This document shows positions 35,561 to 56,856 of a DNA stretch of 64,000 nt, in pieces. Origin of the DNA: Pacificibacter marinus (lineage in GTDB: Bacteria > Pseudomonadota > Alphaproteobacteria > Rhodobacterales > Rhodobacteraceae). A model generated the notes under the pieces. It saw only the letters and a list, made by a program, of their open reading frames with translations, made no database searches and was not told the DNA's origin. Position 1 is the stretch's first letter. Every line of letters starts with the position of its first letter. The stretch spans positions 1-64,000 of the forward strand of contig NZ_JAHKPK010000034.1 in assembly GCF_018860665.1 (NCBI RefSeq), written 5' to 3'. Both the position numbers and the translations under genes were made by a program.

Positions 35561-35582
35561 TCAGATCCTCTACAAAACAAAC

Positions 35583-35609
35583 ATGTCTCCGGCGTATCGT
35601 CGGGGACAT
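35583..35609 (+). terminator. Hairpin between tctC and tctB (second system)
   Basis: ATGTCTCCG pairs with CGGGGACAT (one G-U) around a 9-base loop, 22 bases after the tctC stop. No T-run follows. Its position matches the hairpin in the first tct operon and suggests differential expression of the binding protein. Confidence 0.6.
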
Positions 35610-35751
35610 TGTCTTCTCAATGGGCTTGAATGGCCTAAAATTGTTAGGCTTTACAAAAAGCCTTCCCAAACGACCAGCGCACAGAAAATCAGATAAAGTC
35701 TTTTTATCTTTCACTTGCGTTAGTGACCCAGCCTCATATCGGGAGAAAACG

Positions 35752-36201: not shown

Positions 36202-36204
36202 ACC

Positions 36205-37734: not shown

Positions 37735-37748
37735 CCGTTATTGATAAG

Positions 37749-37778
37749 CCGGCCCTGTGATTGTATAAACAGGGCCGG
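37749..37778 (+). terminator. Strong hairpin between tctA and the GntR regulator gene
   Basis: CCGGCCCTGT and ACAGGGCCGG form a perfect 10-pair GC-rich stem around a 10-base loop, followed by TAAATTTG. It is a probable intrinsic or partial terminator after the tctCBA genes. It also lies in the leader of the regulator gene. Confidence 0.7.
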
Positions 37779-37803
37779 TAAATTTGTTTCAAAGGAGATA
37801 TTG

Positions 37804-39089: not shown

Positions 39090-39107
39090 CTGTCATAGCT
39101 GTGTCAC
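39090..39107 (+). promoter_or_regulatory. Pho box upstream of phnF
   Basis: CTGTCAT, four bases (AGCT), then GTGTCAC: two 7-base direct repeats spaced 11 bases apart, as in the PhoB consensus (CTGTCAT, four AT-rich bases, CTGTCAC/T). Only the first base of the second repeat differs. It lies 43 bases before the phnF start. This predicts induction of the whole operon by phosphate starvation. Confidence 0.8.
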
Positions 39108-39149: not shown

Positions 39150-39863
39150 ATGAATAGAAATAAATGGTCCATTGTCTGCGACGGAATCGAAATGGCTATC
39201 TCGTCAGGGCAGTATCCACCTGGTGACAAATTGCCGACAGAGCCAGAGCTGGCTGCTCAGTTCGGCGTTGGCAGGCATTCGGTAAGGCGCGCCATCGCAG
39301 AGCTGGCGAAGGCCGGTAAAGTGAGCGTCGAACAGGGGCGTGGAACCTTTGTTGAAAGCGGCCCGTTGCTTGAATATGCCATCGGACAGCGCACCCGTTT
39401 GCGTAAAAACCTTTTGTCTCAAGGCATCGATATTCACGGCGAACTTTTGGACGCGCAAATCATCACAGCCAGCGCAGAGGTCGCGCGCGCATTGAATTTG
39501 GTTGAGGGCGCTCAAGTTCTTCAAAGTCAGCGGATCACCTTTGGTGATGGCGTGCCGCTGGCCTTTGGTCGCGCCTTTCATTGCCCCAACCGTTTTCCCG
39601 ATTTCGTTGCACGACGCGATGTTCTGGGGTCGGCCACCGAGGCGTATAAAACATACGGAATTGACGATTATCTGCGCGCCCAGACAACCATGCACGCACG
39701 TCTGGCGCAGGCGCATGAGGCCAAGACACTTAAGTTGCACCCGCAGACAGCTGTGATGGTTGTGCGGGCCATAGATCAATTGCTGGACGGCACTCCGATC
39801 AGCTTCAGCGAAGTGATTTGGGCCGCCTCGCGGGTCAAATTCACGATGACAAACGAGGATTAG
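39150..39863 (+). CDS. phnF: Phosphonate operon GntR/UTRA-type regulator PhnF
   Basis: This 237-residue protein has a GntR winged helix (GQYPPGDKLPTEPELAAQFGVGRHSVRRAIAELAKAGKVSVEQGRGTFVE) and a C-terminal UTRA ligand domain. It is the first gene of the C-P lyase operon, as in many phn clusters, and is separated from phnG by 3 bases. PhnF is a local repressor in species where it has been studied. Confidence 0.92.
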   Translation: MNRNKWSIVCDGIEMAISSGQYPPGDKLPTEPELAAQFGVGRHSVRRAIAELAKAGKVSVEQGRGTFVESGPLLEYAIGQRTRLRKNLLSQGIDIHGELLDAQIITASAEVARALNLVEGAQVLQSQRITFGDGVPLAFGRAFHCPNRFPDFVARRDVLGSATEAYKTYGIDDYLRAQTTMHARLAQAHEAKTLKLHPQTAVMVVRAIDQLLDGTPISFSEVIWAASRVKFTMTNED

Positions 39864-39866: not shown

Positions 39867-40301
39867 ATGCCTAAACCTGCACAAGAATTTTCTCACGAAG
39901 ACGCCTTGTCTATATTGGCACGTGCGGATGCAGCAGCGCTCAAGGCGCTTGGTGAAGATCTGGCAATTGGCTTTCCAGATGTCGAAGTGGTGCACAGCCG
40001 AACGGGGCTGGTGATGCTGCCGATGCGTGACACGGCCCAAGGCACAGCTTTTCACTTGGGCGAAGTGCTGGTGAGTGAAGCGCATATTCGTCACGGAACA
40101 CATGAGGGCTACGGCCTACGCAAAGGGATTGATCTTGAGGCAAGCATGGCCATGGCGCTGGTCGATATTGCTTTGGCGAGCGGCACATATGTTGAGATGT
40201 GTCGCGACTTTTTACGCAAATCTGATGCGCAACACCGCGATGCAGACACCGAAACTCTGCGCCGTATTGAAGCCACCCGCGTAGATATGGAGACGTTTTG
40301 A
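39867..40301 (+). CDS. phnG: C-P lyase core subunit PhnG
   Basis: This 144-residue protein is recognisable by GLVMLPMRDTAQGTAFHLGEVLVSEAHI and by EGYGLRKGIDLEASMAMALVDIALASG, the PhnG C-terminal pattern. PhnG is part of the PhnGHIJ core that assists PhnI in coupling phosphonate to ATP. The GYG-GRD segment common in other PhnG proteins reads GYGLRKGID here, a mild divergence. The stop overlaps the phnH start by one base. Confidence 0.88.
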   Translation: MPKPAQEFSHEDALSILARADAAALKALGEDLAIGFPDVEVVHSRTGLVMLPMRDTAQGTAFHLGEVLVSEAHIRHGTHEGYGLRKGIDLEASMAMALVDIALASGTYVEMCRDFLRKSDAQHRDADTETLRRIEATRVDMETF

Positions 40302-40837
40302 TGCTTACTGTACCCACAGCCAACGCGGCAGAAACCCGTGCCAATCAAACCTTTGACGCTTTACTTTGGGCGCTCAGTCGCCCCGGTATGCCGCGTGACA
40401 TAGCGCCTGACGCCGAAGTTGCCATAATCGATGCACTGATCGACCGCGAATGCAAAGTCTATTGCGCCGACCCTGTGTTGATGCCGCATATTTTAAAAGC
40501 GGGGGCGCTCCTTTCTGATCCGACAACGGCGGATCACGCGTTTCTTGGCAAGCTCATAGATGTCAACGTCTTGGAATATCTTAGGGCTGGGACCGATCTT
40601 TACCCCGACGATGGCGCGACTGTTGTGGCCAATGCGCAGATCGGCGCGGGGCAGCTTTTGCGCATAAGCGGCCCGGGTATTGATGGGTCTCTTCAGATCA
40701 ACATCGACGGATTACCCCAAGGATTCTGGACCAAACGCGCCGATTGCCTGCGCTACCCAATGGGGTTTGACATATTTTTGATCGACGGAGGCCGCGTCAT
40801 CGGCCTGCCGCGCTCTACACAAATCGAGGTGCTCTGA
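40301..40837 (+). CDS. phnH: C-P lyase core subunit PhnH
   Basis: This 178-residue protein has the PhnH features: an early FDALLWALSRPGMP, the GTDLYPDDGATVVANAQ strand, the GPGID motif and a final FWTKRADCLRYPMGFDIFLIDGGRVIGLPRST. PhnH is structurally related to PLP-type folds but binds no PLP, and sits in the PhnGHIJ core. Both ends overlap the neighbours by one base, so phnG-H-I translation is coupled. Confidence 0.92.
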   Translation: MLTVPTANAAETRANQTFDALLWALSRPGMPRDIAPDAEVAIIDALIDRECKVYCADPVLMPHILKAGALLSDPTTADHAFLGKLIDVNVLEYLRAGTDLYPDDGATVVANAQIGAGQLLRISGPGIDGSLQINIDGLPQGFWTKRADCLRYPMGFDIFLIDGGRVIGLPRSTQIEVL

Positions 40838-41892
40838 TGGCATATGTTGCGACCCGCGGTGGTGAACGCGCGATTGAACAAGCTGAACGATTATTTCGTG
40901 CCGAAATGGGCACAATCACGCCCGAAAGGATCAACGAGATCAAAGCTGCCATGCCCTATTTGGTGGACCGCGTGATGGGGGAAGCGTCCTTATATGACGA
41001 AGACATCGCGGCCTTGGCATTGGCGCAAACTGGCGGTGAATTGTATGAGGCGGTGCTGGTTTTGCGCGCGTGGCGCACAACGCAGCCGCGTTTAAGTGTG
41101 GCCGAACCCATTGATCAAGATGCGCTCTTCACCCACCGCCGCCTGTCTGCTGCGTTCAAAGACATTCCGGGGGGGCAGCTGTTGGGGCCGACCTTGGACT
41201 ATTCGCACCGTTTGTTGGCCACGCAAGTTTTGACCGGCGAGGCGTTCGACCCCGTGCCTGTTGATCCTGCCGCCACTCCCGCGCCCGCACATCAGCCGTC
41301 TGTGAGTGCTTGGCAAGCCGCCAACGATTTGGTCGATTTACCCGATGATGACACCACACGGCCTGACGATATCCCTGACATTACCCGCGAGCCTTTGCTG
41401 TTCCCGTCCAAACGCGCGCATACATTGCAAAGCCTTGCGCGCGGGGAAACGGGGGGAGTTTTGGCCTTGGGGTATGCCGCGATGCGTGGGTACGGGCAGG
41501 CCCATCCAACCGTAAATGAGCTGCGCTTGGCCGAGGCAGAGATCGTTGTGACCCATCCCAAGGGCACTAAGTTTTCCGCAGGTCGCGTCAAAGTCTCTCA
41601 AGCCGAGGTGCTATCGAAAAAGGGAGAAAAGCTAGAGCTTGGATTTGCCGCCACTCTGGGCTGGAATGAGGTCAAAGTCATCGCCGCTGCCACTCTGGAT
41701 TTGAACAGCGCAGGCGCGCCCAAAGGCGCTGCGACGGAAGAAGAGTTCTTTTTGTACCACACCGAAGGCGTCGAAAGCTCGGGCTTTTGCATCCATTTCA
41801 AACTGCCACATTACGTCACGTTTCAGTCGTCCTTGGACGCCATGCGCGATGCAAAAGCGCGCTCAGCGCAGCAAAAGGAAACAGCGCAATGA
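40837..41892 (+). CDS. phnI: C-P lyase nucleosidase subunit PhnI
   Basis: This 351-residue catalytic subunit displaces adenine from ATP by phosphonate to give the ribose-5-triphosphate phosphonate. Typical motifs are VATRGGERAIEQAE, FKDIPGGQLLGPTLDYSHRLL and the C-terminal HTEGVESSGFCIHFKLPHYVTFQ, which includes the two His residues equivalent to E. coli His328 and His333 near the active-site metal. PhnI therefore looks fully functional, in contrast to PhnJ. The stop overlaps phnJ by 4 bases. Confidence 0.94.
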   Translation: MAYVATRGGERAIEQAERLFRAEMGTITPERINEIKAAMPYLVDRVMGEASLYDEDIAALALAQTGGELYEAVLVLRAWRTTQPRLSVAEPIDQDALFTHRRLSAAFKDIPGGQLLGPTLDYSHRLLATQVLTGEAFDPVPVDPAATPAPAHQPSVSAWQAANDLVDLPDDDTTRPDDIPDITREPLLFPSKRAHTLQSLARGETGGVLALGYAAMRGYGQAHPTVNELRLAEAEIVVTHPKGTKFSAGRVKVSQAEVLSKKGEKLELGFAATLGWNEVKVIAAATLDLNSAGAPKGAATEEEFFLYHTEGVESSGFCIHFKLPHYVTFQSSLDAMRDAKARSAQQKETAQ

Positions 41893-42803
41893 GCCTGAAA
41901 ACCCTCACCCGCGATTGGGAACCGATGAGCTATGGTTTCTTGGATGCCTCCGCCAAACGCGAGCTGCGCCGCAAGATGCTCAAAGCTGTGGCAGTGCCCG
42001 GATGCCAGATGCCCTATGCCAGCCGCGAAGTGCCCATGGCGCGCGGTTGGGGCACGGGCGGTTTGCAAGTGTCCTTGACACTGATCAATCCGAAGACTTG
42101 CGTGAAAGTGATCGATCAAGGCGCTGACGACAGCGTCAATGCCGCGTCAATTCGGTCTTTTCTCGCAAAGGTTTCCGGTGCGCCGACAACGCTCGATACG
42201 CTGAAAGCAGACCTCATTCAGTCACGTCACCGCATTCCAGAAGAGGTGTTGCGCGAAGATCAGGTGCTCGTCCTGCAAGTGCCCAATCCTGAACCTTTGC
42301 GATCCGTTCAACCCAATATGTCCATCGCGCGCCAGATGCATGCAGATGCGGATTACGGGCGGATGTGGTTGCAACTTTACGAACAAATTGTGCGCTCGGG
42401 TCGGATCATGCAAGGGGCGTCTTACCCATCGATGGTCAATGGACGCCATGTGATGACGCCTTCGCCGATCCCGCGTTGGGATGTACCAAAATTGAATATG
42501 GCCAAGCATTTGACGATTCTTTCAGCCGGACGCGAGAAACGTATTTTCGCTGTGCCGCCCTTTACACGGGTCGAACCCTTGGTCTTTGATGATGTGCCCT
42601 ACAAGGTCGAAGATCATGCCAATTTAACGTGTTACAGATCGGGCGTGCGGGGGCTCTTTATGAACGAAATTCCACAAGAGGATGGCAGTTCAACCCATGA
42701 GGTGTCCGACAGTGAGTATGGTGTGAAAGTCATTCGCCGTGCCGATGGCGATGACACCGTGCTGGGCAAAACATGGTATGAAAATGGAGAGATGTCGTCA
42801 TGA
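41889..42803 (+). CDS. phnJ: PhnJ family protein lacking most of the Fe-S cluster cysteines
   Basis: This 304-residue PhnJ relative keeps the fold signatures LRRKMLKAVAVPGCQMPYASREVPM, GWGTGGLQV, KVIDQGADDSVNAASIR, SPIPRWDVPKLNM, GREKRIFAVPPFTRVEPL. Gly38 corresponds to the radical Gly32 of E. coli. In E. coli PhnJ, Cys241, Cys244, Cys266 and Cys272 hold the 4Fe-4S cluster and thiyl radical. The aligned residues here are Cys248, Ser251, Val272 and Gly278 (LTCYRSG, and EVSDSEYG where VCSDTDYC is expected). The frame is open and local similarity continues through the region, so a frameshift does not explain it. A tail of about 25 residues follows. Either the reaction differs or the cluster is held otherwise. 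Confidence 0.85.
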   Translation: MSLKTLTRDWEPMSYGFLDASAKRELRRKMLKAVAVPGCQMPYASREVPMARGWGTGGLQVSLTLINPKTCVKVIDQGADDSVNAASIRSFLAKVSGAPTTLDTLKADLIQSRHRIPEEVLREDQVLVLQVPNPEPLRSVQPNMSIARQMHADADYGRMWLQLYEQIVRSGRIMQGASYPSMVNGRHVMTPSPIPRWDVPKLNMAKHLTILSAGREKRIFAVPPFTRVEPLVFDDVPYKVEDHANLTCYRSGVRGLFMNEIPQEDGSSTHEVSDSEYGVKVIRRADGDDTVLGKTWYENGEMSS

Positions 42804-43597
42804 CCATCACTTTGGACGCACCGCGCATTGTCACAGCGCACCCCTTGATGACATTGAAAAATGTCTCGAAATCGTATGGTGATGTGCGCGCTGTGCGCGA
42901 CGCCTCAGTCGAGGTGTTCCCTGGCGAAGTCATGGGCATCGTCGGCGAAAGTGGATCGGGCAAATCCACGTTGTTGCGGATGATGAACCTCGAAGACACG
43001 CCAGACACGGGCAGCTATACGCTCGACCTGCCCGATGTGCAGGGCAACCTGTTTGAACTGGATAGGTTTGCGCGCCGGATGCTTTGCGCCACGAAAATCG
43101 GTATTGTGTATCAAAATCCGCATCTGGGACTTTTGATGAACCATTCCAGCTCTGGTAATGTCGCCGAACGGCTTTTGGTGGCGGGCGAACGACGGTTTTC
43201 GGTGCTGCGTGACAAGGCCCAAATCGCCCTAGAAGCGTCAGAGTTTCCGTTGGAACGTTTGGACGCCCCGCCGATTGAATTGTCCGGCGGTATGCAGCAA
43301 CGGGTGCAATTGGCCAAGGCCATCGCCTTGGAGCCTGCACTTTTGTTGTTGGATGAACCGACCACGGGTTTGGACGTCAGTGTGCAGGCTCTGGTGCTTG
43401 ATACATTGAAGCGACTGCAACAAGACCGGCAGATCACCATGGTGATCGTGTCTCATGACTTGGGCGTGATCCGCACGATGGCGGACCGTGTCATTGTCAT
43501 GCGCCGTGGTGAAATCGTCGAATCCGGCTTGGCCGATCAGATATTTCAAGACCCTCAACACCCCTATACACAACAATTGGTGCACGCAAAGTTATGA
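42800..43597 (+). CDS. phnK: C-P lyase ABC-type ATPase PhnK
   Basis: This 265-residue ABC ATPase of the phn core operon has Walker [10 protein letters not shown] near 51, signature ELSGGMQQRV and Walker B LLLLDEPTTGLD. PhnK binds the PhnGHIJ core and is not itself part of an importer. The NPHLGLLMNHSSSGNVAERL segment is typical of PhnK. It overlaps phnJ by 4 bases. Confidence 0.92.
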   Translation: MTITLDAPRIVTAHPLMTLKNVSKSYGDVRAVRDASVEVFPGEVMGIVGESGSGKSTLLRMMNLEDTPDTGSYTLDLPDVQGNLFELDRFARRMLCATKIGIVYQNPHLGLLMNHSSSGNVAERLLVAGERRFSVLRDKAQIALEASEFPLERLDAPPIELSGGMQQRVQLAKAIALEPALLLLDEPTTGLDVSVQALVLDTLKRLQQDRQITMVIVSHDLGVIRTMADRVIVMRRGEIVESGLADQIFQDPQHPYTQQLVHAKL

Positions 43598-44313
43598 CAC
43601 TTGTATTGGATGTTCAAAGCCTGACCAAAGGCTTCACGATGCACCATTTGAACACGCAAATGGCGGCTTTTAACGATATTTCCTTTGGCCTGCACTCAGG
43701 TGAGTTTCTTTTGCTCAAAGGCACAAACGGCGCGGGTAAATCGACGTTGTTGCGCACGCTGTATCGCAGCTACTTGGCGCAAAGTGGGGCTGCGTTATTC
43801 CAGTCCTCGCATGGCGTGATCGATTTGATGCGTGCCGCAGATGTGGATATCACCCATTTGCGGCGTAGCGAAATCGGCTTTGTCACCCAGTTCCTTGTGG
43901 CCCGCCCGCGCGTTAGTGCGCAGGCCTTGGTGGCGGAACCTTTGCGCCAAGCCGGACATTCGGCTGATGCGGCACTGGATGAAGCGCGCCGTTGGCTCAG
44001 TGCTTTTGGCGTCAAAGAAGAGTTGTGGCGGGCCTACCCGACGACGTTTTCTGGTGGAGAACAGCAAAAAGTCAATCTTGCCCGTGCATTGATTTTACCG
44101 CAAAAACTATTGCTGCTGGACGAGCCAACGGCATCACTGGATGTCCAAGCCCGCACCGCTTTGGTGGCGCGGTTGGCCGAGTTGAAATCTCAAGGCACAG
44201 CTATGATTGGTGTCTTTCACCACCCTGATGACGTGTCGCATTTGATCGATCGCGTTATCGACCTCACCCCCAATACTTCCAACCCAGAGGACAGAGAAGA
44301 TGTGGCTTACTAA
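43594..44313 (+). CDS. phnL: C-P lyase ABC-type ATPase PhnL
   Basis: This 239-residue ABC ATPase has Walker A GTNGAGKST near 43, signature FSGGEQQKVNLARALI, Walker B LLLLDEPTASLD, and the PhnL stretch HLRRSEIGFVTQFLVARPRVSAQALVAEPL. It works with PhnK in the core complex. Its 3' end overlaps phnM by 14 bases. Confidence 0.92.
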   Translation: MTLVLDVQSLTKGFTMHHLNTQMAAFNDISFGLHSGEFLLLKGTNGAGKSTLLRTLYRSYLAQSGAALFQSSHGVIDLMRAADVDITHLRRSEIGFVTQFLVARPRVSAQALVAEPLRQAGHSADAALDEARRWLSAFGVKEELWRAYPTTFSGGEQQKVNLARALILPQKLLLLDEPTASLDVQARTALVARLAELKSQGTAMIGVFHHPDDVSHLIDRVIDLTPNTSNPEDREDVAY

Positions 44314-45481
44314 TGCAAAACTGGTGCTGCCTGACCGCGTTGTTGAAAAAGGTGCGATGAGACTTGAAAACGGCCGGATTGCCGCCATCGCAGAACAGCC
44401 TGTTGATGTTGGTCTTGATTGTGGTGGCGCGCTGATTTTCCCAGGCTTCATTGATATGCATGGCGATATGATTGAGATGGAGCTGGAGCCACGTGCGCTG
44501 GTCGATTTTCCGATGGAGGTGGCGCTGAGCCATTTGGACAATCGCTTGGCGGCCTCAGGGATCACCACTGCCTATGCGGCGGTCAGTTTTTCAAAAGGAG
44601 CGCGCAGCGGTGAGCAGCGTTCGTTTGAACATACAAGCCATACGATCCGCGCGCTCAATGCGTTGCGACAGCATTGCCAAATTGATCACCGCATTCACGC
44701 GCGGTTTGACATCACATTCGACAATGCTGTGGCTGTGCTCGAAGACCTCATTTGCGATAATTTGGTCGATCTTGTGTCGGTCATGGATCACACGCCAGGC
44801 CAGGGCCAGTACCGCGATATCGAACGCCATATCACTTTGGTGGCCGCGCGCGAGGGTATTTCGCTTATACAAGCGCGCCAAGATGTGGCGACGCGCATTG
44901 CCGAACGCAGCCGCCCTGAAAGTGCCATTTTGAACAATTTGCAGCAAGTGTCTGCTTTGTGCAAAGCACACGGGGTTGCTTTGGCCAGTCACGATGACGA
45001 TACGCGCGACAAAGCGCAATTGATGGCTGATGTCGGCGCAGTTATTTCCGAGTTCCCCGTCACGTTTGAGGCAGCAAAAATCGCAGCCGAACGCGGAATG
45101 CTTTCAGCAATGGGCGCGCCAAATGCGATGCGCGGGCAAAGCTATTCCGGCAATCTGTCAGCGCGTGCGGCACATGCGCAAGGATTGTTGCATATTTTGG
45201 CGTCGGATTATCATCCGGGCGCGATGTTGCCCGCCGTGTTGGAACTGGCGAAATCAGATCCAAACGGTCTGGCAGGAGCGGCAGCCCTTGTGACGTCCAA
45301 TCCAGCACGCGCGCTTGGATTGACAGATCGTGGACAACTGGCGGTTGGTTTGAAAGCGGACCTTGCCATCGTTGAGACACATGCACTCACACGGGTCATC
45401 GCGACGTTACGCGATGGAAAATTTGTCCACTCCATTGGTCAATTGCCGAACACATTGATCGCTCAGCCCGCCGTGGCCTAA
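44300..45481 (+). CDS. phnM: Alpha-D-ribose 1-methylphosphonate 5-triphosphate diphosphatase PhnM (first copy)
   Basis: This 393-residue amidohydrolase-fold enzyme removes pyrophosphate from the ribose-triphosphate phosphonate intermediate. Metal-site motifs are FIDMHGDMIEMELEPR (near 52), VSVMDHTPGQGQY, ALASHDDDT, ISEFPVTFEAA and HILASDYHP. The order and spacing match PhnM, although HGDM replaces the HTDN of E. coli. It is the last gene of the coupled phnGHIJKLM run; a hairpin follows before phnC. Confidence 0.9.
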   Translation: MWLTNAKLVLPDRVVEKGAMRLENGRIAAIAEQPVDVGLDCGGALIFPGFIDMHGDMIEMELEPRALVDFPMEVALSHLDNRLAASGITTAYAAVSFSKGARSGEQRSFEHTSHTIRALNALRQHCQIDHRIHARFDITFDNAVAVLEDLICDNLVDLVSVMDHTPGQGQYRDIERHITLVAAREGISLIQARQDVATRIAERSRPESAILNNLQQVSALCKAHGVALASHDDDTRDKAQLMADVGAVISEFPVTFEAAKIAAERGMLSAMGAPNAMRGQSYSGNLSARAAHAQGLLHILASDYHPGAMLPAVLELAKSDPNGLAGAAALVTSNPARALGLTDRGQLAVGLKADLAIVETHALTRVIATLRDGKFVHSIGQLPNTLIAQPAVA

Positions 45482-45528: not shown

Positions 45529-45613
45529 TCATGCAATTGTAGATTCAGGGTCATTTTCCTTGGGTATCACTCTCTTGAAACGTTCGAATGAATTTTTTTG
45601 GGAGTGCCGCACA

Positions 45614-46417
45614 ATGAGTTCGATCCTGACCTTGAGCCAAGTCTCGCGCCAATTCGGTGACACCCATGCGGTGGATCGCGCGAACCTGTCGATTGAGCCG
45701 GGCCAGTTTGTGGGTGTCATTGGTCGCTCCGGTGCTGGCAAGTCCACAATGTTACGCTTGATCAATCGTCTTATCGATCCCACTTCGGGGTCGATTTCTT
45801 TTGGAGAGCTTGATGTCACATCGCTGAAAGGCAAGGCACTGCGTCAATGGCGACGCGATTGCGCGATGATCTTTCAACAGTTCAATCTGGTTGACCGTTT
45901 GGATGTACTGACCAATGTGTTGATCGGCCGTTTGGCAGAGCACGGGTTTTTATCATCGATGGCGATGCGTTTCTCTGATGAAGAGCGCGCTATGGCGATT
46001 CAGGCTTTGGATCGTCTGGATTTGGTGCCCCAAGCCTTGCAGCGCGCAGGCACGCTTTCAGGCGGGCAACAGCAACGTGTCGCGATTGCCAAAGCCTTGG
46101 TCCAAAAACCGAAAATCATGTTGGCGGATGAACCAATCGCCTCGCTTGATCCGGCCAATGCCTCATTGGTGATGGAAAGTTTGCGAAGGATAAACCGCGA
46201 GGATGGCATCACCGTTTTGGTCAATTTGCACACGCTCGATACGGCGCGCGCTTACTGCGACCGCATCATCGCGATGCGCCAAGGGCGCGTGTTTTTTGAT
46301 GGGGTTGCTGCACAGCTTACTGATGGCGTTGTGCGCGACATCTATGGTCTTGAGGGCCTGAAAGACTTCAACGCCGACATCACGTCGACCACGATCCGAA
46401 CACCCATGCCTGCTTAA
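45614..46417 (+). CDS. phnC: Phosphonate ABC transporter ATP-binding protein PhnC
   Basis: This 267-residue ATPase has Walker [10 protein letters not shown] near 38, signature [10 protein letters not shown], Walker [16 protein letters not shown] and the PhnC-like ENLxRV-type region [31 protein letters not shown]. It energises phosphonate import with PhnD and two PhnE proteins. The ATG at 45614 fits homologues; a longer reading starts 54 bases earlier. Confidence 0.93.
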
Positions 46418-46447: not shown

Positions 46448-47353
46448 ATGCGTTTTATTACAGCCACAGCACTCGCCGCTCTCATCGCAGTTCCAGCCTT
46501 GGCCGAAGGTTGGAAAGATGACTACCAAGTGATCAAATTCGGTATCTTGTCCGGTGAAAACGAAAAAGATCGCATCGCGCGCTACACGCCGTTTGAACAG
46601 TATCTTGAAAAAGAGCTTGGCGTTGAGGTCGAAATCTTTACGGCTGGCAACTATGATGGCGTGATCCAAGCCATGGCCGCCGACCAAATCGAATTTGCGT
46701 TCTTGGGGTCCTCCGCTTATGCGGCCGCCTACACAGCCACCAACGGCGGTGTGACGCCATTGGTTTCACGTCTGCAAAATGACGGATCTACTGGCTATTA
46801 TTCTGTTATCGTCACACGGTGTGACAGTGGCCTGAATGATTTGGCCTCGCTTGAGGGCAAAGTTCTGGCCTTTGCTGATCCGGATTCCACATCTGGCTAC
46901 GCTGTGCCATATTTCAACCTGTCCAAAGAAGTAGACCCGAAAACATACTTCTCAGCTATCCCATTTTCAGGATCACATGAGGCGGGCGTTCAAGCCGTTG
47001 TCAACGGAACCTTTGATGCGGCAGCCACGTACACAACCAATGAAATCAGCGGTGTCGTACAGAAGATGGTGACCAAGGGCATGATTAAAGACGGCGAGGC
47101 TTGCGAAATCTGGCGGTCTCCTGAAATCACATCGGGTCCATTGACGGCACGTTCCCATCTGCCAGAAGCTCTTATGGACGCGATGACCTCTGCAATGATG
47201 GAACTTCCTGAGAAAGATCCTGTGGCTTTCAAAGAAATGTCTGGTGGCGAAGATTCCACGCAGAAAGCATGGATCGAAGTTGATCAAGAGCGCTATCAGT
47301 GGATCGTTGAGATGCGCGAATGGATCAAAGAAGAGCGCCGCAAAGCCAACTGA
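46448..47353 (+). CDS. phnD: Phosphonate ABC transporter periplasmic binding protein PhnD
   Basis: This 301-residue protein has a signal peptide (to about 19, ending PALAEGW) and PhnD motifs FGILSGENEKDRIARYTPFEQYLEKELGV, AGNYDGVIQAM, FLGSSAYAAA, DPDSTSGYAVP and FSGSHEAGVQAV, which line the phosphonate pocket in the E. coli protein. A single Cys pair (about 121 and 217) could form a disulfide. A strong terminator-like hairpin follows the gene. Confidence 0.94.
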   Translation: MRFITATALAALIAVPALAEGWKDDYQVIKFGILSGENEKDRIARYTPFEQYLEKELGVEVEIFTAGNYDGVIQAMAADQIEFAFLGSSAYAAAYTATNGGVTPLVSRLQNDGSTGYYSVIVTRCDSGLNDLASLEGKVLAFADPDSTSGYAVPYFNLSKEVDPKTYFSAIPFSGSHEAGVQAVVNGTFDAAATYTTNEISGVVQKMVTKGMIKDGEACEIWRSPEITSGPLTARSHLPEALMDAMTSAMMELPEKDPVAFKEMSGGEDSTQKAWIEVDQERYQWIVEMREWIKEERRKAN

Positions 47354-47415: not shown

Positions 47416-48357
47416 ATGACCCTGACGGCCGAAATTCCTTCCCAAAGACCTGCGCCAATCGATAGGTTTCACACCTTTGAGCAAGACTTCGCTTCCAAAC
47501 GTCAGCGCTCAAAGCGTGCTTGGATCATCGGCAGTGTCTTGTTTTTGGGGCTCTTTGCTTTGACAAGTTGGATGGGGGACTTTTTCAAATACACCCAAGT
47601 CAGTCTTCCAGATGGTTCACGCGAATGGCGGTGGATTATTCCGGCGGGTATTCCGCGCCTTGGGGAATATATTTCACTGACCATTCCGACCCTACGCTGG
47701 AACAGTTTGGGTAGCGATTTCGCTGAATGGTTTTGGCGTTGGCAAATTTGGGGGTGGTTGCTGCTTGAAACCTTATTGATCGCCTTTGTGGGCACGGTCT
47801 TGGGTGTCATCGGCGGCTTTGTTTTGTCTTTTCCGGCCGCTAGAAACTTGTCTCCAAACAAATGGGTGCTTTGGGCGGCGCGGCGTTATTTAGAGATTGC
47901 GCGCACCGTACCTGAACTTGTTTGGGCTTTGATTTTCGTCTTCTGTTTCTCGGTTGGCCCCTTGGCGGGCGTTCTGGCCATCGGACTTCATGCCACGGGT
48001 GCGCTGGGCAAGTTGTATTCCGAAGTGAATGAAAACATCGATATGCGTCCTCTTGAAGGTGTCAAAGCGTCAGGGGGAACATGGTTTGATCAAATTCGTT
48101 TTGGCGCGGTGCCACAGGTCTTGCCTAATATTGTCAGCTACACTTTGCTGCGGTTTGAAATCAACGTGCGCTCTAGTTCGATCATCGGTTACGTCGGCGC
48201 AGGGGGGCTGGGGCAAGAGTTCCGCACGGCGATGTCGTTTCAAGAATATGCAGATTTGTCCGCGCTTTTTGTCATCATTTTCGTCACCGTCGTCATCATC
48301 GATTACGGATCAGAAAAACTACGCCACCGCGTGATTGGAATGGAGGCACAGTCATGA
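47416..48357 (+). CDS. phnE: Phosphonate ABC transporter permease PhnE (first)
   Basis: This 313-residue membrane protein has about six helices and PhnE motifs ETLLIAFVGTVLGVIGGFVLSFPAARNL, RTVPELVWALIFVF and the EAA loop around PLEGVKASGGTWFDQIRFGAVPQVLPN, ending VGAGGLGQEFRTAMSFQEY. Its stop overlaps the second phnE by 4 bases. Confidence 0.93.
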   Translation: MTLTAEIPSQRPAPIDRFHTFEQDFASKRQRSKRAWIIGSVLFLGLFALTSWMGDFFKYTQVSLPDGSREWRWIIPAGIPRLGEYISLTIPTLRWNSLGSDFAEWFWRWQIWGWLLLETLLIAFVGTVLGVIGGFVLSFPAARNLSPNKWVLWAARRYLEIARTVPELVWALIFVFCFSVGPLAGVLAIGLHATGALGKLYSEVNENIDMRPLEGVKASGGTWFDQIRFGAVPQVLPNIVSYTLLRFEINVRSSSIIGYVGAGGLGQEFRTAMSFQEYADLSALFVIIFVTVVIIDYGSEKLRHRVIGMEAQS

Positions 48358-49211
48358 GCCTGACCATCGACGACATCAACGCCGCCAAAGCCCGTGTTCC
48401 GCTAGCGTTTAAAGCGCCATTGCAGGTGCGATTGCGCCGCGCCGCACTTTGGGTCGGCTTTATTGGATTGTTTTGCTACTGCCTGTGGGCTTTTGATTTT
48501 AGCCCTGCTCGCATCTGGACGGGATTGGGCCGTTTGGGCACTGTCTTGGGCTTTATGTTCCCACCGCATATCTGGGACAATTGGTTCGAAGTATCGGAAA
48601 TTTTAAAGGGTTTGGGCGAGACACTGTCTATTGCCTTCATGGGCACGCTTTTGGGTGCGATCATCGGTTATCCCTTGTCATTTTTGGGCGCAAAAAACAT
48701 CAATCGTTTTACCTTTCTGCGCCAAACTGCACGGCGCGGCTTTGATGTTATCCGCGCGTTTGAAACTTTGATCCTTGCGTTGATTTTCATCCGCGCTTTT
48801 GGGCTTGGGCCATTGGCAGGTATTTTGGCAATAGCCGTCAGCGAGATCGGCACCTTCGCGAAAATGTTCTCGGAGGCCACTGAAAATACCTCTGACAAAC
48901 CTGTGGAGGGCGTGAAGTCTTCGGGCGGGTCACGCCTGCAACAAATCCGTTTTGGCATCGCGCCGCAGGTCAACCCCGTCATCTTGTCGATCTTGTTGTA
49001 CAACTTTGAATCCAACGTACGATCGGGCACGATTTTGGGCATCGTTGGGGCAGGCGGCATCGGGTTTATTTTGTCAGACCGCATCAGCGCTTATAGATGG
49101 GATGAAGCATGGTCGATCATCTTTTTGATTATCGCCATGGTCTATGTCATCGATTATCTGTCCGACTTGATCCGCCAGCGCATCATCGGCACGTGGGACG
49201 GTGCGAAATGA
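48354..49211 (+). CDS. phnE: Phosphonate ABC transporter permease PhnE (second)
   Basis: This 285-residue partner permease has ETLSIAFMGTLLGAIIGYPLSFLGAKN, RAFETLILALIFIRAFGLGPLAGILAI, EAA loop PVEGVKSSGGSRLQQIRFGIAPQVNP and GIVGAGGIGFILSDRI. Two consecutive PhnE genes are usual in alphaproteobacteria and form a heterodimer. Confidence 0.93.
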   Translation: MSLTIDDINAAKARVPLAFKAPLQVRLRRAALWVGFIGLFCYCLWAFDFSPARIWTGLGRLGTVLGFMFPPHIWDNWFEVSEILKGLGETLSIAFMGTLLGAIIGYPLSFLGAKNINRFTFLRQTARRGFDVIRAFETLILALIFIRAFGLGPLAGILAIAVSEIGTFAKMFSEATENTSDKPVEGVKSSGGSRLQQIRFGIAPQVNPVILSILLYNFESNVRSGTILGIVGAGGIGFILSDRISAYRWDEAWSIIFLIIAMVYVIDYLSDLIRQRIIGTWDGAK

Positions 49212-49279
49212 CTGTTGATGAACGCATCAGCCGTGCGCATGAGGTTAAATTTTCTCAAACATCGGAGGGCCTAATATGA
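49208..49279 (+). CDS. Tiny coupled open frame between phnE and the acyltransferase
   Basis: A 23-codon frame ([20 protein letters not shown], then GLI) starts in the phnE stop (ATGA overlap) and ends in the acyltransferase start (ATGA overlap, 49276-49279). It would carry ribosomes across the gap and couple translation. The GGAGG of the next gene lies near its end. I do not recognise the peptide; it could be a translational relay, or the fortuitous remnant of a larger gene. Confidence 0.35.
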
Positions 49280-49905
49280 GCGGCGCTGGATCGAAACCAA
49301 AACTAAGCGAGGCCCCAACCATTCACCCCGAGGCCCAAGTGACTGACTGCGAGCTTGGCGCTTGGACTGAGGTGGGCAAAGGCACGGTGATGAAATCTTC
49401 GCAGATGGGCGATTATTCGTACATCACTCAAAACGGTCATGTGGTTTGGACCACCATCGGTAAGTTCTGTTCCATCGCAAATGCAGCACGGATCAATCCG
49501 GGCAATCATCCGACATGGCGCGCGATGCAGCACCATTCCGTTTACCGCGCCGAAGCTTACGATCTGGGCGAAGACGACCATGAGTTTTTCGAGTGGCGCA
49601 AAGATCACTGGGTCACCATCGGTCATGATGTTTGGATAGGTCACGGGGTGACTGTGACCGCAGGAGTGACCATCGGCAACGGCGCTGTCATTGGCGCAGG
49701 CGCCGTCGTGTCGCGTGATGTCGCCCCCTATACGATTGTTGGCGGCGTGCCCGCGCGCCTGATCAAGCGGCGGTTTTCTGAGGCGCAATCCGAGGCTCTA
49801 CAAGAGATCGCTGTGTGGGATTGGCCCCGCGCAAAATACAAAACGGCTCTACCTGATATCCGCGCTTTAAATATAGATGCGTTCATTGAAAAATATCGTC
49901 CATAG
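49276..49905 (+). CDS. Phosphonate-operon hexapeptide-repeat acyltransferase
   Basis: This 209-residue left-handed beta-helix transferase of the xenobiotic/chloramphenicol acyltransferase type resembles the phn-associated hexapeptide family. Hexapeptide turns are visible ([29 protein letters not shown], then [25 protein letters not shown]), with the catalytic-type His in QHHSVYRAE and the C-terminal PARLIKRRF. It probably acetylates an aminoalkylphosphonate or intermediate, as proposed for phn-linked acetyltransferases. A strong convergent terminator follows. Confidence 0.9.
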
Positions 49906-49959: not shown

Positions 49960-50775
49960 CTAACAGACCAGCCCCAAATCTTTGAGATAAGCGAAGCCTT
50001 TGGGAATTTCGGCTTTATCGCGCAGCTCTAACACCAGATGCGGTGCGCTTTCACATGTCGATAGCGCACCAAAGACGGCGGGCCATTCAATTTCGCCATC
50101 CCCTGGCGCCCAGTGGCGATCTGCATATCCATCAAGGTCTTGCAAATGCATATGCTGCAACTGATGCCCTGCATCGCGCACAAAGTAATCAACGGGCGGC
50201 GCACCGGACATCTTGCGGGCCAAATGCGCGTGGCCTGTATCGATAGACAGCGCGATAGCATCGCTGCCAAAGCTGTCGACCATGGCGCGTCGCGTGGCAG
50301 GGTCAACGTCTTGGATGTTCTCGATCACCAAAGTGATGCCTTCGATTTCAGCTTGTTTTACAACGGGCCCAAGCACGTCATGGATACGACCCAGTTTGCT
50401 GGCGCAGTAGTCTTTTGCGCTGTGGAGGTTGTTTTGATACCAAAGCGTATAGGGCGAATGCAGCACCATTTGGCGCGCGCCAATGGCGGCCGCGGCCTCA
50501 AGTGCTTTCAAGAATCGCGCTGTGATCAGCGGGCGCAATTCGGCGTCTTTGTTGTCGATATCAAGTCCTTCAAAGGGCCCATGAATACCCACGCGACCAT
50601 CGTGGCCTTGCAAAGCCAATTTCGCAGCCGTAATCAAATCTTGCCTGTCCTGTGTCAGCGCAGCATGACTCATAAAGTCTTGCAATTCGATGTCTCGAGC
50701 GGCATCAAAAAGCCAATCGCGATGTTCCAAAATCTCACTGTGGCGCAGACATGCGCCGATCTTAAGCGGGGGCAA
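49960..50775 (-). CDS. Sugar phosphate isomerase/epimerase-like TIM-barrel protein
   Basis: This 271-residue protein of the xylose isomerase-like/AP endonuclease 2 superfamily has its metal-site residues in order: Glu in TLVIENIQD, Asp/His in SIDTGHAH, His in MHLQDLDG with DRHWAPGDGEIEW, and Glu in LVLELRD. A role as an epimerase or isomerase of a phosphorylated or phosphonylated sugar is possible; with phnM it might replace a missing step of ribose-phosphate processing. It overlaps the MFS gene by 14 bases and is the last gene of the leftward set. Confidence 0.82.
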   Translation of the reverse strand: MPPLKIGACLRHSEILEHRDWLFDAARDIELQDFMSHAALTQDRQDLITAAKLALQGHDGRVGIHGPFEGLDIDNKDAELRPLITARFLKALEAAAAIGARQMVLHSPYTLWYQNNLHSAKDYCASKLGRIHDVLGPVVKQAEIEGITLVIENIQDVDPATRRAMVDSFGSDAIALSIDTGHAHLARKMSGAPPVDYFVRDAGHQLQHMHLQDLDGYADRHWAPGDGEIEWPAVFGALSTCESAPHLVLELRDKAEIPKGFAYLKDLGLVC

Positions 50776-51967
50776 TGGAGTGTCTCCTTGGGTCGGGAAT
50801 AAAGAAATAGGTGAACAGACCGGCCAACAGGCACAGGGTCATAGCGGCAAAGGAATACCAGCCGCCATAGACTTGCGTGATCCATGCAAAGACGAAGGGC
50901 GCAGAGGCGTTCACGCCCAATTGGACGAAAGAAATCCAACCCAGCCGTGCGCCGTAGCCTTTTGCGCCAAACAGCGCCAGCGGTAATGTGCCGCCTGCGA
51001 TTGTTTTGATCCCGTCGCCCATGCCATAAAGTGCGGCTGCGATGATGACGCCGGGCAGGGTGAAACCTAAAATCAGCAACACAGCAAAGCCCGAAAACAT
51101 CAAAGCGAGGCTTAAAAAATACGTGAACAGCGGATACATATTTCGGCTGACCAGCATCTCAAACCCACGGCCAACGGTTTTAAACGGGCCAATCACCGCC
51201 CCTGCCAAAGCGGCTATTCCTGCGCTGTGACCCAAATCTTGAACATTGACCACCCAAAGGCTCATTATTGCGCCCATGATGTAACCTGTAAAAACAAAAG
51301 ACAGCACCATCCATAGCATGCCACGCATTCGCGCCTGTCCTGTCAATTCTGGCCAATCGTCATCGTTGCGACTTTGGGGCGCGTCATGATCTTTTTGCGG
51401 GCCGCGCAAGGCCCAAAAATGGATCGGGACGCAGACGACGCCCAAGGCCACGCCCATCACCACCCAAGTGCTCTGCCAGCCCAATCCGTTGTAGAGCGCC
51501 AAGGTTAGCGGCCAGAAAATAGTCGACGCCACACCGCCAAACAGCGTGATAATCGAGATTGATTTTTTCGCGGGTACTGGATTGTCCAGACGTGCCACGC
51601 TGGCAAAGGCTACGTTGTACAAAACGAACCTGCCCGCGCCCTCGACCAAGAGGATTGCCAAAAACAACCCAATGACACCTTCGACAAGAGATAGTGACGT
51701 CAATCCCACCGCGGCTACGATTGAACCGATAGTCATGACATAACGTCCGCCAAATCGATCTACTAACATCCCCGCAACAGGTGACGCCAAGCCGCCGAAA
51801 AATAAGCCTAGTGATAAAACGCCGAACACAGTCGAAAGCGTCAAAGACAAATCCTCCGCCATATGCGGCAATAGGACCGCATAGGCGTACATCAACGTCC
51901 CGTAGCCCATGATTTGGGTCACGCCCAATCCGATGGCTGGTATGTAAGGGCCTAGATGCTTTAGCAT
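50762..51967 (-). CDS. MFS transporter
   Basis: This 401-residue membrane protein has 12 predicted helices, with LVDRFGGRYVMTIGS as the loop 2-3 motif, and resembles the oxalate/formate antiporter-like MFS branch. I start it at MLKHLGPYIPA; this start overlaps the PhnM2 stop by a few bases, and the longer reading is basic and overlaps more. The substrate is unknown. Its place among the second phn genes suggests import or export of a phosphonate or product. Confidence 0.85.
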   Translation of the reverse strand: MLKHLGPYIPAIGLGVTQIMGYGTLMYAYAVLLPHMAEDLSLTLSTVFGVLSLGLFFGGLASPVAGMLVDRFGGRYVMTIGSIVAAVGLTSLSLVEGVIGLFLAILLVEGAGRFVLYNVAFASVARLDNPVPAKKSISIITLFGGVASTIFWPLTLALYNGLGWQSTWVVMGVALGVVCVPIHFWALRGPQKDHDAPQSRNDDDWPELTGQARMRGMLWMVLSFVFTGYIMGAIMSLWVVNVQDLGHSAGIAALAGAVIGPFKTVGRGFEMLVSRNMYPLFTYFLSLALMFSGFAVLLILGFTLPGVIIAAALYGMGDGIKTIAGGTLPLALFGAKGYGARLGWISFVQLGVNASAPFVFAWITQVYGGWYSFAAMTLCLLAGLFTYFFIPDPRRHSIAPA

Positions 51968-53172
51968 GCGGCAGGTTGCCCGCGATACGCGCAACGGCCT
52001 GCGACCCAGGTGCCCAAAATGGCTGGCGCTTGCCTGTCTGGCCAATCCACCAAGACCAAATCAGCCCGTTTACCGATCTCAATATCGCCTCTGTCCGTCA
52101 GGTTCATGGCGCGCGCCGGCCCGCTGGAGATAAGCGACCAAAGCGTGCTGCGATCAGCGCGGCGTTCCATATCAAGGCGGGCGACGGCAGCAAGCATTGC
52201 GGGATAGAAATAGTCCGAGGCCAAGACATCACAGAGCCCCGCTTCAACCATGTCGCCTGCGCCAAGCGATCCGATATGACTGCCTCCGCGTGCCGCGTTG
52301 GGCGAGCCGAAGACGATCAAATCGCCGTTGTCACGCGCCGCTTGCACGGCTTCCATAACCATCGGAAACTCTGCGACCTTCGCGCCTAAATCGCGAAAAT
52401 AGCTGCGGGTCTCGCTGCGGGTGTCGTCGTGGCTGAGCATCGGCACGCCCGCGTTACGGCCAAGTTCAGCAATCTTGCGCACTGCGTTTTCCACATCGGG
52501 ACGACGGTCCCAAACCTTGCTCAAAAGCGCGATATAGGCCTCGTCGCTCAGCCCCGCACGCCGCGCCTTAGAGGCCGTGCGTTTGATCATGCGCGCGTCG
52601 TCCAGTGCGGCGATTGAAAAATCGGGTGACAATTCAAAGGCCCGATCCTGAATGGCAACATCATAGGCGCGCATCGTCATCGAGGTGTGATCATTGAAAG
52701 CAATAGATGGCTTCAATGGCGATTGCAGCGCCCATTCGATGGTGTCCAGCGCTTCAAACGCGAAGGTTTCCCAGCGCAGTTGCACACGGTTTTCCACGGT
52801 CAAACGTGGCGCCAGATCAATCATTGCCTGCATCAATTCACGCCCGCGCTGCACGTCGCGCAATCCCGGTTCCCACCCCAAAGTGATAGCGTGAAAAGCC
52901 GTGGCGATCCCGTTGGAGGCCAATTGGCGATCTGTGTCCAATAAAGCCGTTTGCGTTGGGAAAAACACGTCAGGACGCGGCATCAATTGGCGCTCGAAAG
53001 CATCGCCATGCACATCGATAAGTGCAGGTGCAAGATATTGCCCTTTGGCGTCGATAATCTCGCCGACTTCAGCCCCGCCGATTTCGACAATCGTCCCGTC
53101 TGAAACAGTCACAGCGGTTTCAACGATACCGTCAGGCAAAAATACTTTTGCTCCCACAAACGTATAGGTCAT
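51961..53172 (-). CDS. phnM: PhnM-like alpha-D-ribose 1-methylphosphonate 5-triphosphate diphosphatase (second copy)
   Basis: This 403-residue amidohydrolase has motifs LIDVHGDAFERQLMPRPDVFF, MLSHDDTRSETR, VAEFPMVMEAV, FGSPNAARGGSHIGS and VLASDYFYPAML, clearly the PhnM pattern. The HGDAFER version is different from the HGDMIEM of the first copy, so the two are old paralogues rather than a recent duplication. It probably serves the second transporter set, or hydrolyses a related nucleotide-like phosphonate. Confidence 0.88.
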   Translation of the reverse strand: MTYTFVGAKVFLPDGIVETAVTVSDGTIVEIGGAEVGEIIDAKGQYLAPALIDVHGDAFERQLMPRPDVFFPTQTALLDTDRQLASNGIATAFHAITLGWEPGLRDVQRGRELMQAMIDLAPRLTVENRVQLRWETFAFEALDTIEWALQSPLKPSIAFNDHTSMTMRAYDVAIQDRAFELSPDFSIAALDDARMIKRTASKARRAGLSDEAYIALLSKVWDRRPDVENAVRKIAELGRNAGVPMLSHDDTRSETRSYFRDLGAKVAEFPMVMEAVQAARDNGDLIVFGSPNAARGGSHIGSLGAGDMVEAGLCDVLASDYFYPAMLAAVARLDMERRADRSTLWSLISSGPARAMNLTDRGDIEIGKRADLVLVDWPDRQAPAILGTWVAGRCAYRGQPAAC

Positions 53173-53224: not shown

Positions 53225-54031
53225 TCATCGCTGCTCTCCTATAATTTTTTTGCGCGCCCAAGTGCTAAAGGCTTCGATCCCCAGCACCACAACTGCGATC
53301 ATCACAATCACAGTCATCGCTGTTGGATAATCAAAAAGATCGAACCCGACCTTAAGCTCAATACCAATGCCGCCAGCGCCCACAAGCCCCAGCACTGTCG
53401 ATGATCGCACCGCTTTTTCAAGCGCATAAAGTGCTGTGGATACAAATGCGGGCATGGATGCGGGCACGGTGGCGCAGGCTGCGATGTCAATGCGGGTCGC
53501 TCCCGTGGCCGTCAGCGCCTCGGACGGACCTTTGTCGATGGCTTCCATGTCGTCTGCGAAGAACCTGCCGCAAAAGCCGATGGTATCAATGGCGATGGCC
53601 AATGTGCCAGCAAACGGACCAAGCCCCACAGCGACGACAAACACCAAGGCCCAAGCTAAATCGGGCACCGATCGAATGAACCCTAATATGTTGCGTACAC
53701 TGGTGTTGACCACTTGCCCTGCAATCAGACCGCGCGCGGCGAAGAGTGCGATGGGCACGGATAAAACGATGCCAATAATCGCGCCAGCAAAGGCGATTTG
53801 AAGCGTTTCAACCATTTTCCAAAACAGGCGCAATAGAACTTTGGGCTCTACATTGGGCGGAAAAGCCCGTGACACGAAGTCGGCAAAACGAGGCGGAGAG
53901 CTTAGGATCTTATCCACGGAAAATCCGGCGCCTTGAAAGGACCAGAGCATCACGATGATGACGGCAGCATAGATCAAAAAAGACAAGGCCGTGGGGCGCT
54001 CTAGCCTCTGCGGCAAAGATGTATCAGTCAT
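53225..54031 (-). CDS. phnE: Phosphonate-type ABC transporter permease (PhnE-like, second system)
   Basis: This 268-residue membrane protein has PhnE motifs METLQIAFAGAIIGIVLSVPIALFAARGL, RSVPDLAWALVFVVAVGLGPFAG, the EAA loop SEALTATGATRIDIAACATVPASMP and VGAGGIGIELK. Only one permease is present here, so it probably forms a homodimer. Its start overlaps phnC2 by 8 bases. Confidence 0.9.
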   Translation of the reverse strand: MTDTSLPQRLERPTALSFLIYAAVIIVMLWSFQGAGFSVDKILSSPPRFADFVSRAFPPNVEPKVLLRLFWKMVETLQIAFAGAIIGIVLSVPIALFAARGLIAGQVVNTSVRNILGFIRSVPDLAWALVFVVAVGLGPFAGTLAIAIDTIGFCGRFFADDMEAIDKGPSEALTATGATRIDIAACATVPASMPAFVSTALYALEKAVRSSTVLGLVGAGGIGIELKVGFDLFDYPTAMTVIVMIAVVVLGIEAFSTWARKKIIGEQR

Positions 54032-54839: not shown

Positions 54840-54843
54840 TGGA

Positions 54844-55713: not shown

Positions 55714-55720
55714 GATACGC

Positions 55721-55756
55721 TCCAAATGAAATTCATGCGGATGAATTCCATTTGGA
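55721..55756 (-). promoter_or_regulatory. Leader hairpin covering the phnD2 ribosome site
   Basis: In the leftward mRNA, TCCAAATG and CATTTGGA (8 pairs) and then ATTCAT and ATGAAT (6 pairs) stack across a 2+2 internal loop with a 4-base apex. The GGA of the phnD2 Shine-Dalgarno lies in the 3' arm, so folding would hide it. It could be a translational switch or thermosensor, or a DNA operator palindrome. Confidence 0.55.
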
Positions 55757-56813: not shown

Positions 56814-56856
56814 ACACCCCGTTTTTGTGATCTCACCAGTGCATGTATTTGTTTTG

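Follow-up and report, generated by a model that had tools for sequence, protein, structure and literature searches.

A conserved lineage of PhnJ lacking radical-site cysteines, encoded by an intact phn operon in Pacificibacter marinus and its relatives

Can a carbon–phosphorus (C–P) lyase operon be maintained when its PhnJ subunit lacks the cysteines assigned to bond cleavage? The question is raised by a 64,000-nucleotide stretch of the Pacificibacter marinus genome (contig NZ_JAHKPK010000034.1; hereafter the window), in which a phnGHIJKLM operon encodes a full-length PhnJ of 304 amino acids (positions 41889–42803, plus strand). Its membership of the PhnJ family is clear, with a Pfam PF06007 score of 386 bits (cut-off 25) over profile positions 3–271 of 275 and a match to Escherichia coli PhnJ in PDB at 1.7e-80. 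In the alignment, E. coli Cys241, Cys244, Cys266, and Cys272 correspond to Cys248, Ser251, Val272, and Gly278 of the window PhnJ, and Gly32 corresponds to Gly38. The initial annotation had thus placed all four substitutions correctly, and its further statements, that the radical-type glycine is kept and that the operon is complete, are borne out: the core families were matched and the gene order is conserved in relatives. According to passages of PMC9947105 and PMC7916636, the E. coli cysteines are tied to the iron–sulfur (Fe–S) cluster and Cys272 is said to attack phosphorus. Because the cluster and Cys272 are needed, E. coli-type radical chemistry as described cannot run on such a PhnJ. By alignment, two of the three ligands of the 4Fe-4S cluster and the thiyl cysteine are lost, and the PhnI–PhnJ zinc/product site and phnGHIJKLM are kept.

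The 187 aligned PhnJ sequences, E. coli included, fall into 71 with all four cysteines (four-Cys), 115 with Cys241 only (Cys-poor), and one gapped sequence (L059), which was set aside to leave 186; no intermediates were found. Since overlapping loci are included, the 115 and 71 rows represent 93 and 70 unique sequences, respectively. All 115 Cys-poor rows lack both Cys244 and Cys266, position 272 is occupied by Gly (110), Ala (3), or Met (2), and Gly32 is present throughout. No NCBIfam match was obtained for three PhnJ proteins tested, both types among them. A sequencing error or frameshift is ruled out because the same three cysteines are missing from 80 named loci and, within the family, from a further 23 genomes. 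Relocation of the cysteines within the protein was likewise rejected: Cys248 is the sole cysteine invariant over the 93 unique Cys-poor sequences, the next best being Cys39 (80/93). Two conditions that the initial annotation had set against itself, namely four cysteines elsewhere in the protein and a sequencing error, are therefore not the case. The invariant residues of the C-terminal domain (93/93) are Cys248, Arg250, Asn259, Pro262, Glu271, Ser273, and Asp274. They include no obvious replacement metal site, the possible ligands shared with Thermus being Cys248, Glu271, and Asp274, as judged from sequence with no fold search made. The alphaproteobacterial Cys-poor proteins also share a tail, GETWYxxGEM (residues 293–300 of the window PhnJ), which is not found in canonical or Thermus PhnJ.

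Other Cys-poor PhnJ proteins in complete phn operons, for which the initial annotation had called, were readily found, and whole operons are present in most loci. A genome-wide scan that used an alignment of the C-terminal part yielded 183 relatives; the best 80 named loci, which belong to Rhodobacterales and Rhizobiales by their titles, are all Cys-poor. Among 394 genomes of the family, the window PhnJ was searched against the 31 that had at least two PhnJ matches or whose best match was weak, those with a single strong match being taken as canonical. Twenty-three of the 31 carry a PhnJ 75–88% identical to that of the window, all of them Cys-poor, giving 24 carriers of 394 with the window's own genome. 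Plasmid records add relatives by identity from Haematobacter, Nitratireductor, Sinorhizobium, Rhizobium, Mesorhizobium, Microvirga, and Thermus thermophilus, and the cysteine pattern was read in those of Nitratireductor, Sinorhizobium, Mesorhizobium, Microvirga, and two of Thermus. In broader samples the type is rare, i.e. 2 of 385 genomes of the class (E-values up to 1e-95) and 5 of 398 of the phylum (up to 1e-90; all of the same class, with G882 and G990 counted as Cys-poor by identity), the window's own genome being included in both.

In a maximum-likelihood tree of 71 of 161 PhnJ rows, built from E. coli residues 8–230 (which exclude the cysteine region) and carrying long-branch warnings, the 39 Cys-poor rows, the Thermus pair among them, all lie on one side of a branch supported at 97/89 and recovered in 96% of 200 bootstrap trees. 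Their nearest neighbours are a sister type that, unlike them, keeps all four cysteines, found on plasmids of haloarchaea (Haloarcula and Natrinema), Methylibium, and Marinobacter and in two genomes of the family, G131 and G315 (95/53, with long branches and the corresponding warnings in this group). PhnI proteins of the Cys-poor operons also fall on one side of a branch (Shimodaira–Hasegawa-like approximate likelihood ratio test, 100) in a quick tree of 57 of 134 rows, again with long-branch warnings. Because PhnI splits as PhnJ does, the Cys-poor operons seem to evolve as units. The cysteines were probably lost once, as far as an unrooted tree can indicate. The PhnJ of G131 and G315 (loci L056 and L057) represents a third type in the same family, in which the four cysteines are preceded by an insertion, and groups with the haloarchaeal and Marinobacter type.

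The ratio of non-synonymous to synonymous substitution rates (dN/dS) of the whole Cys-poor phnJ gene is 0.02–0.07 in 9 of 11 chosen pairs with computable dS, although dS is near saturation in five of the nine; the nine include four close pairs with dS under 0.6. The core of the gene gives 0.01–0.05 in the same nine pairs, and the C-terminal domain, computable in 5 of 11 pairs, gives 0.08–0.18. Cys-poor phnJ is not decaying, because its whole-gene dN/dS is so low; purifying selection and the conserved clade led us to reject decay. The comparisons thus support a separate, divergent, and conserved lineage with an apparently intact operon.

The part of the complex that is retained can be located on the E. 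coli structure. In passages of PMC9947105, a cryo-electron microscopy ligand is modelled as a cyclic ribose phosphate at the PhnI–PhnJ interface, where it contacts Arg107, His108, Gln124, and the loop 47–50 of PhnJ, and zinc is held by His328 and His333 of PhnI, plus His219 in the open state. The PhnJ residues R107, H108, and Q124 and the loop 47–50 are present in all 115 Cys-poor rows, and G32, G47, G49, T50, R107, H108, and Q124 are invariant in both PhnJ groups. PhnI His219, His328, and His333 are found in 93 of 93 unique PhnI proteins of Cys-poor operons. This retained site, and the second operon described below, were missing from the initial annotation. In the set that docks PhnK, position 149 (Glu in E. 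coli) is Asp in 115/115, Asp229 is kept in 115/115, and Tyr158 in 113/115. No partner subunit appears to supply the lost cysteines, there being no cysteine common to the whole clade in PhnH, PhnI, PhnK, PhnL, or PhnM. The most frequent ones (PhnI Cys318, 81/84; PhnH Cys52, 71/77; PhnK Cys96, 66/80; PhnM Cys221, 70/84) are all absent from the two Thermus rows, and PhnG Cys112 is present in 43/71 of an alignment that holds no Thermus PhnG. Residue 318 of PhnI, two before the zinc ligand His328 (E. coli numbering), is Ala in the two Thermus rows; in 44 PhnI proteins of four-Cys operons it is Leu in 25, Val in 13, and Cys in 3.

Genes for the subsequent steps were sought in 18 genomes. The 13 genomes with both PhnJ types all have phnN no more than 11 kb from the canonical phnJ. 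In three with no canonical PhnJ match (G074, G297, and Paenochrobactrum gallinarii, G818) it is found no more than 9 kb from the Cys-poor gene. A DUF1045 gene adjoins the Cys-poor operon in G074 and G297 and is located elsewhere in G818; in Mesorhizobium AR07 and Microvirga VF16, viewed at the locus alone irrespective of the canonical status of the genome, DUF1045 and phnN directly follow the Cys-poor phnM. No PhnP match above the cut-off was obtained in any of the 18 genomes, so DUF1045, a relative of the 2H phosphoesterases, is likely the PhnP equivalent. The DUF1045 protein of the window genome belongs to the 2H phosphodiesterase superfamily and is probably RcsF; section 5.3 of PMC10574752, in the part available, states that operons without phnP carry rcsF, a member of this superfamily that might process the cyclic product. 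The placement of phnN and DUF1045 beside Cys-poor operons suggests that their product, too, is likely the cyclic ribose phosphate.

The window genome (3.89 Mb, 65 contigs, 95% complete) has a second PhnJ, with all four cysteines, on contig C14. Its operon (stretch L148) contains phnCDE, a hexapeptide gene, phnF, and phnH-I-J-K-L-N-DUF1045-M, phnG not being called, and its PhnJ and PhnI are 46 and 38.5% identical to those of the Cys-poor operon, respectively. The initial annotation had considered that a second canonical phnJ could mark the Cys-poor gene as a decaying copy; the canonical gene does exist, but the low dN/dS speaks against decay. A canonical PhnJ, called by profile score, accompanies the Cys-poor one in 69 of 74 carrier genomes. 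Among the named carriers, 48 of 50 have a strong canonical match (30 of the 48 were fetched, and 30/30 are four-Cys), the others being the isolate P. gallinarii with none and the Marivita SBSPR1 metagenome-assembled genome (G805) with fragments only. In the family sample a canonical PhnJ accompanies 21 of 24 carriers, three of the 21 (the window's own genome, G020, and G317) having been read and the copy in G390 lying in two pieces on two contigs; the exceptions are G074 and G297 (99% complete) and G335 (79% complete). Another PhnJ is thus present in 21/24 carriers versus a PhnJ in 179/370 other genomes of the family (Fisher p 2e-4, ignoring shared ancestry). The two phnJ genes lie within 25 kb of each other in 7 of 69 genomes versus 0.9 expected for a 4-Mb genome, a distance chosen post hoc and likewise ignoring ancestry. 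In Shimia ponticola, the Cys-poor operon, the canonical operon, and satellite genes follow one another. In Marivita SBSPR1 (L196, 4778–5692 and 15236–19900), the Cys-poor operon is whole and the canonical one is a remnant comprising PhnI, a truncated PhnJ, PhnN, DUF1045, and PhnM; neither PhnK nor PhnL was matched in the stretch retrieved.

Of the possibilities raised by the initial annotation, a divergent and conserved C–P-lyase-like complex with an intact operon stands; a different chemistry or substrate may apply, as may a scaffold role in which the canonical PhnJ of the genome cuts the C–P bond. We give roughly even credence to the view that the Cys-poor operon encodes a second functional complex of this kind, acting, by ribosylation and cyclising release, on substrates whose cleavage requires no homolysis. 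Under phosphate starvation, the complex would be switched on and would import a phosphorus compound, which PhnI with PhnG, PhnH, and PhnL may join to the ribose of a nucleoside triphosphate and PhnM may trim. Attack by the ribose 2-hydroxyl at the zinc site would then release 5-phosphoribosyl 1,2-cyclic phosphate without a radical step, and the downstream enzymes of the canonical operon, the 2H phosphoesterase (DUF1045) and PhnN, would take over this cyclic phosphate. The natural substrate would carry a substituent able to leave without homolysis, as esters, amidates, or activated phosphonates do.

Several points weigh against this view. Both the activity and the substrate are putative, and cells open phosphate esters by cheaper means. 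Evolution is faster in the C-terminal domain than in the core, although that domain is not free of constraint, and two of the five PhnK-docking positions are changed or mixed (D226 is Val in 108/115; D228 is Asp in 60 and Ser in 50). The single structure model (mean predicted local distance difference test score of 42) was too poor to be drawn on. The phnN gene beside a Cys-poor operon could be what is left of a canonical operon since lost, which seems to have happened in Marivita SBSPR1, where it stands beside the canonical remnant, and G335, with no canonical PhnJ, has neither phnN above the cut-off nor a DUF1045 match. Finally, the presence of a canonical PhnJ in 69 of 74 carriers also fits a helper role.

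Such a helper role, which we regard as possible although rather unlikely, would make the Cys-poor PhnJ a pseudoenzyme scaffolding a second import and ribosylation module, with the canonical four-Cys PhnJ cutting in trans. The co-occurrence in 69/74 carriers, the enrichment (21/24 versus 179/370), the proximity of the two genes in 7/69 genomes, and the consecutive operons of S. ponticola speak for it, and the retention of Tyr158 and Asp229 for PhnK docking, together with a C-terminal domain that is the least constrained part, is consistent with a scaffold. Against it stand G074 and G297 (99% complete) and P. gallinarii, which have no canonical PhnJ match, and Marivita SBSPR1, in which the canonical core is broken and the Cys-poor operon whole.

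A bolder alternative, that the C–P bonds of ordinary phosphonates are cut at the PhnI–PhnJ zinc site without 4Fe-4S cluster, S-adenosylmethionine (SAM), or thiyl radical, so that the Fe–S cluster is not the cleavage site anywhere in the family, appears improbable. An unactivated alkyl group is unable to leave heterolytically, and most carriers retain a canonical copy, although neither type varies in the residues surrounding the cyclic phosphate and the zinc, and three genomes without canonical PhnJ keep phnN adjoining the operon. The accepted mechanism places the Fe–S site ~30 Å from the glycyl radical at Gly32, an acknowledged problem in that the structures are not readily reconciled with it, yet the published PhnJ cuts via SAM, the cluster, and Cys272 (parts of PMC9947105 and PMC7916636). 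If this alternative were true, the zinc site, and not the distant cysteine site, would open phosphonates in this enzyme family. A decaying or non-functional duplicate, for which the canonical copy and the faster C-terminal domain might be cited, is very hard to credit. The clade is single and old, spanning Rhodobacterales, Rhizobiales, and Thermus; it is under purifying selection, most of its loci hold whole operons, and it persists in genomes whose canonical core is broken or missing.

Among open-licence full texts in PubMed Central, which leave most subscription papers and preprints outside, no description of a PhnJ without these cysteines was found, and none is given in the available parts of PMC9381506, PMC6852614, and PMC5649143. 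The four cysteines are checked as marks of a working PhnJ in a passage of PMC11978286. The Cys-poor genes bear the name phnJ in public annotation, and phnJ (KEGG K06163 in PMC8774927) is used as a marker for the release of methane from methylphosphonate; passages of PMC8774927 infer methylphosphonate degradation in Marivita from gene presence. Marivita SBSPR1 is among the genomes with a pathway claimed there, and its sole whole phnJ is Cys-poor. The existence of this type weakens phnJ as a marker of aerobic methane production. The lineage represents a natural separation of modules, the zinc/product site being kept and the Fe–S/thiyl part lost, which makes the disputed mechanism directly testable; its activity would tell which module does what.

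Compared with the E. coli C–P lyase PhnGHIJKLM (PDB 4XB6 and 7Z15–7Z19), the Cys-poor system shares the PhnG, PhnH, PhnI, PhnJ, and PhnM families, the zinc-site and product-contact residues, Gly32, and the core operon content. It differs in the absence of Cys244, Cys266, and Cys272, in Asn at D252, in the GETWYxxGEM tail of alphaproteobacterial members, and in the placement of phnN, which lies inside the flanks of just 1 of 57 full-flank Cys-poor loci. The canonical operon L148 resembles the Cys-poor operon in having phnCDE1E2, the hexapeptide gene, phnF, and phnH–M, but includes phnN and DUF1045 and has another gene order. The phn cluster of T. thermophilus plasmid pVV8 encodes a Cys-poor PhnJ of the same clade; unlike the window, it has no GETWY tail, Cys39, or PhnI Cys318, a YmdB-type phosphoesterase gene is nearby, and no PhnN match was found in the stretch. 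By description only, a precedent for two operons per genome with different ranges is the second C–P lyase operon (htx) that Pseudomonas stutzeri reportedly possesses. Glyphosate-specific C–P lyase variants, mentioned in the available part of section 8.2 of PMC10574752, offer a lead.

The features of the locus are listed in Table 1. The recurring order among relatives is phnFGHIJKLM-CDE1E2-hexapeptide, and the 57 named full-flank loci contain phnF in 57, phnC in 50, phnD in 49, the hexapeptide gene in 45, and the TIM-barrel (triosephosphate isomerase-type) gene or second phnM in 32.

Table 1. Features of the Cys-poor phn locus in the window
Feature	Position	Strand	Evidence or remark
Pho-box-like site	39090..39107	+	two mismatches to CTGTCATN4CTGTCAT (assumed motif); ~40 bases upstream of phnF
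phnF, GntR-type regulator	39150..39863	+	TIGR02325 195 bits, cut-off 156.8
phnG	39867..40301	+	PF06754 71 bits, cut-off 32.4; TIGR03293 71.8 bits, under cut-off 89
phnH	40298..40837	+	PF05845 105 bits
phnI	40837..41892	+	PF05861 357 bits; 4XB6 chain C; His219/328/333 kept, Cys318
phnJ, Cys-poor type	41889..42803	+	PF06007, alignments
Codon of PhnJ Cys248	42630..42632	+	first of four codons spanning 42630..42722
Codon of PhnJ Ser251	42639..42641	+	
Codon of PhnJ Val272	42702..42704	+	
Codon of PhnJ Gly278	42720..42722	+	
phnK, non-transport ATP-binding cassette (ABC) ATPase	42800..43597	+	PF00005; relatives of 80 operons aligned
phnL, non-transport ABC ATPase	43594..44313	+	PF00005
phnM, ribose-phosphonate triphosphate diphosphatase	44300..45481	+	NF011988 474 bits, TIGR02318 396 bits, both above cut-off
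phnC, transporter ATPase	45560..46417	+	open reading frame (ORF); 56% identity to canonical-operon phnC
phnD, phosphonate-binding protein	46448..47353	+	TIGR03431 275 bits, above cut-off
phnE1, permease	47416..48357	+	ORF; same place in related operons, 48/57 full-flank loci
phnE2, permease	48354..49211	+	ORF; equal position in related operons
Hexapeptide transferase of phosphonate operons	49276..49905	+	TIGR03308 284 bits, above cut-off; 45/57 full-flank loci
Satellite: TIM-barrel protein	49960..50775	-	PF01261; weakly like phosphodiesterase CbiR (under model cut-off); 26/57 full-flank loci
Satellite: major facilitator superfamily transporter	50762..52045	-	PF07690; 11/57 full-flank loci
Satellite: second PhnM-like amidohydrolase	51961..53172	-	PF07969; 24/57 full-flank loci
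Satellite: PhnE-, PhnC-, PhnD-like transporter genes	53225..55725	-	ORFs, starts uncertain; PF12974 for PhnD-like

Pho-box-like sites were scored with CTGTCATN4CTGTCAT, which we take to be the Pho-box motif. The window contains three matches versus 4.87 expected, which is not beyond chance. Sites with up to three mismatches lie upstream of 28 of 69 Cys-poor operons versus ~1.6 expected against an order-1 Markov resample, with gene starts that may be over-extended. In the canonical stretch L148, four matches with three mismatches were found versus 1.6 expected, as many occurring in 11 of 200 shuffles, so that nothing clear emerges there. C–P lyase is under Pho control according to part of PMC10574752, as in E. 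coli, whereas Pho-box-like sites alone are seen here; they suggest that a phosphate-starvation role of the Cys-poor operon is likely.

The satellite cluster occupies the minus strand at 49960–55725, and parts of it recur next to Cys-poor operons; it may represent a second phosphonate uptake route or serve in cyclic-phosphate handling. A PF01261 TIM-barrel gene, weakly similar to that of the window, is also present near the pVV8 operon and after the Natrinema operon, as in the window, and none is listed for the second Thermus record. Upstream of the phn operon (34595–38502) lie ORFs resembling TctC and TctA (named by eye), of a tripartite tricarboxylate-type transporter, together with a GntR-type regulator; the TctC/TctA labels occur in no other locus listed. 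At 55932–63844, ORFs for a LysR-type regulator, a glucose–methanol–choline oxidoreductase, an enolase-superfamily protein, an aldehyde dehydrogenase, a hydroxyacid dehydrogenase, and a tripartite ATP-independent periplasmic permease, likewise named by eye, form what looks like an unrelated sugar-acid catabolic cluster.

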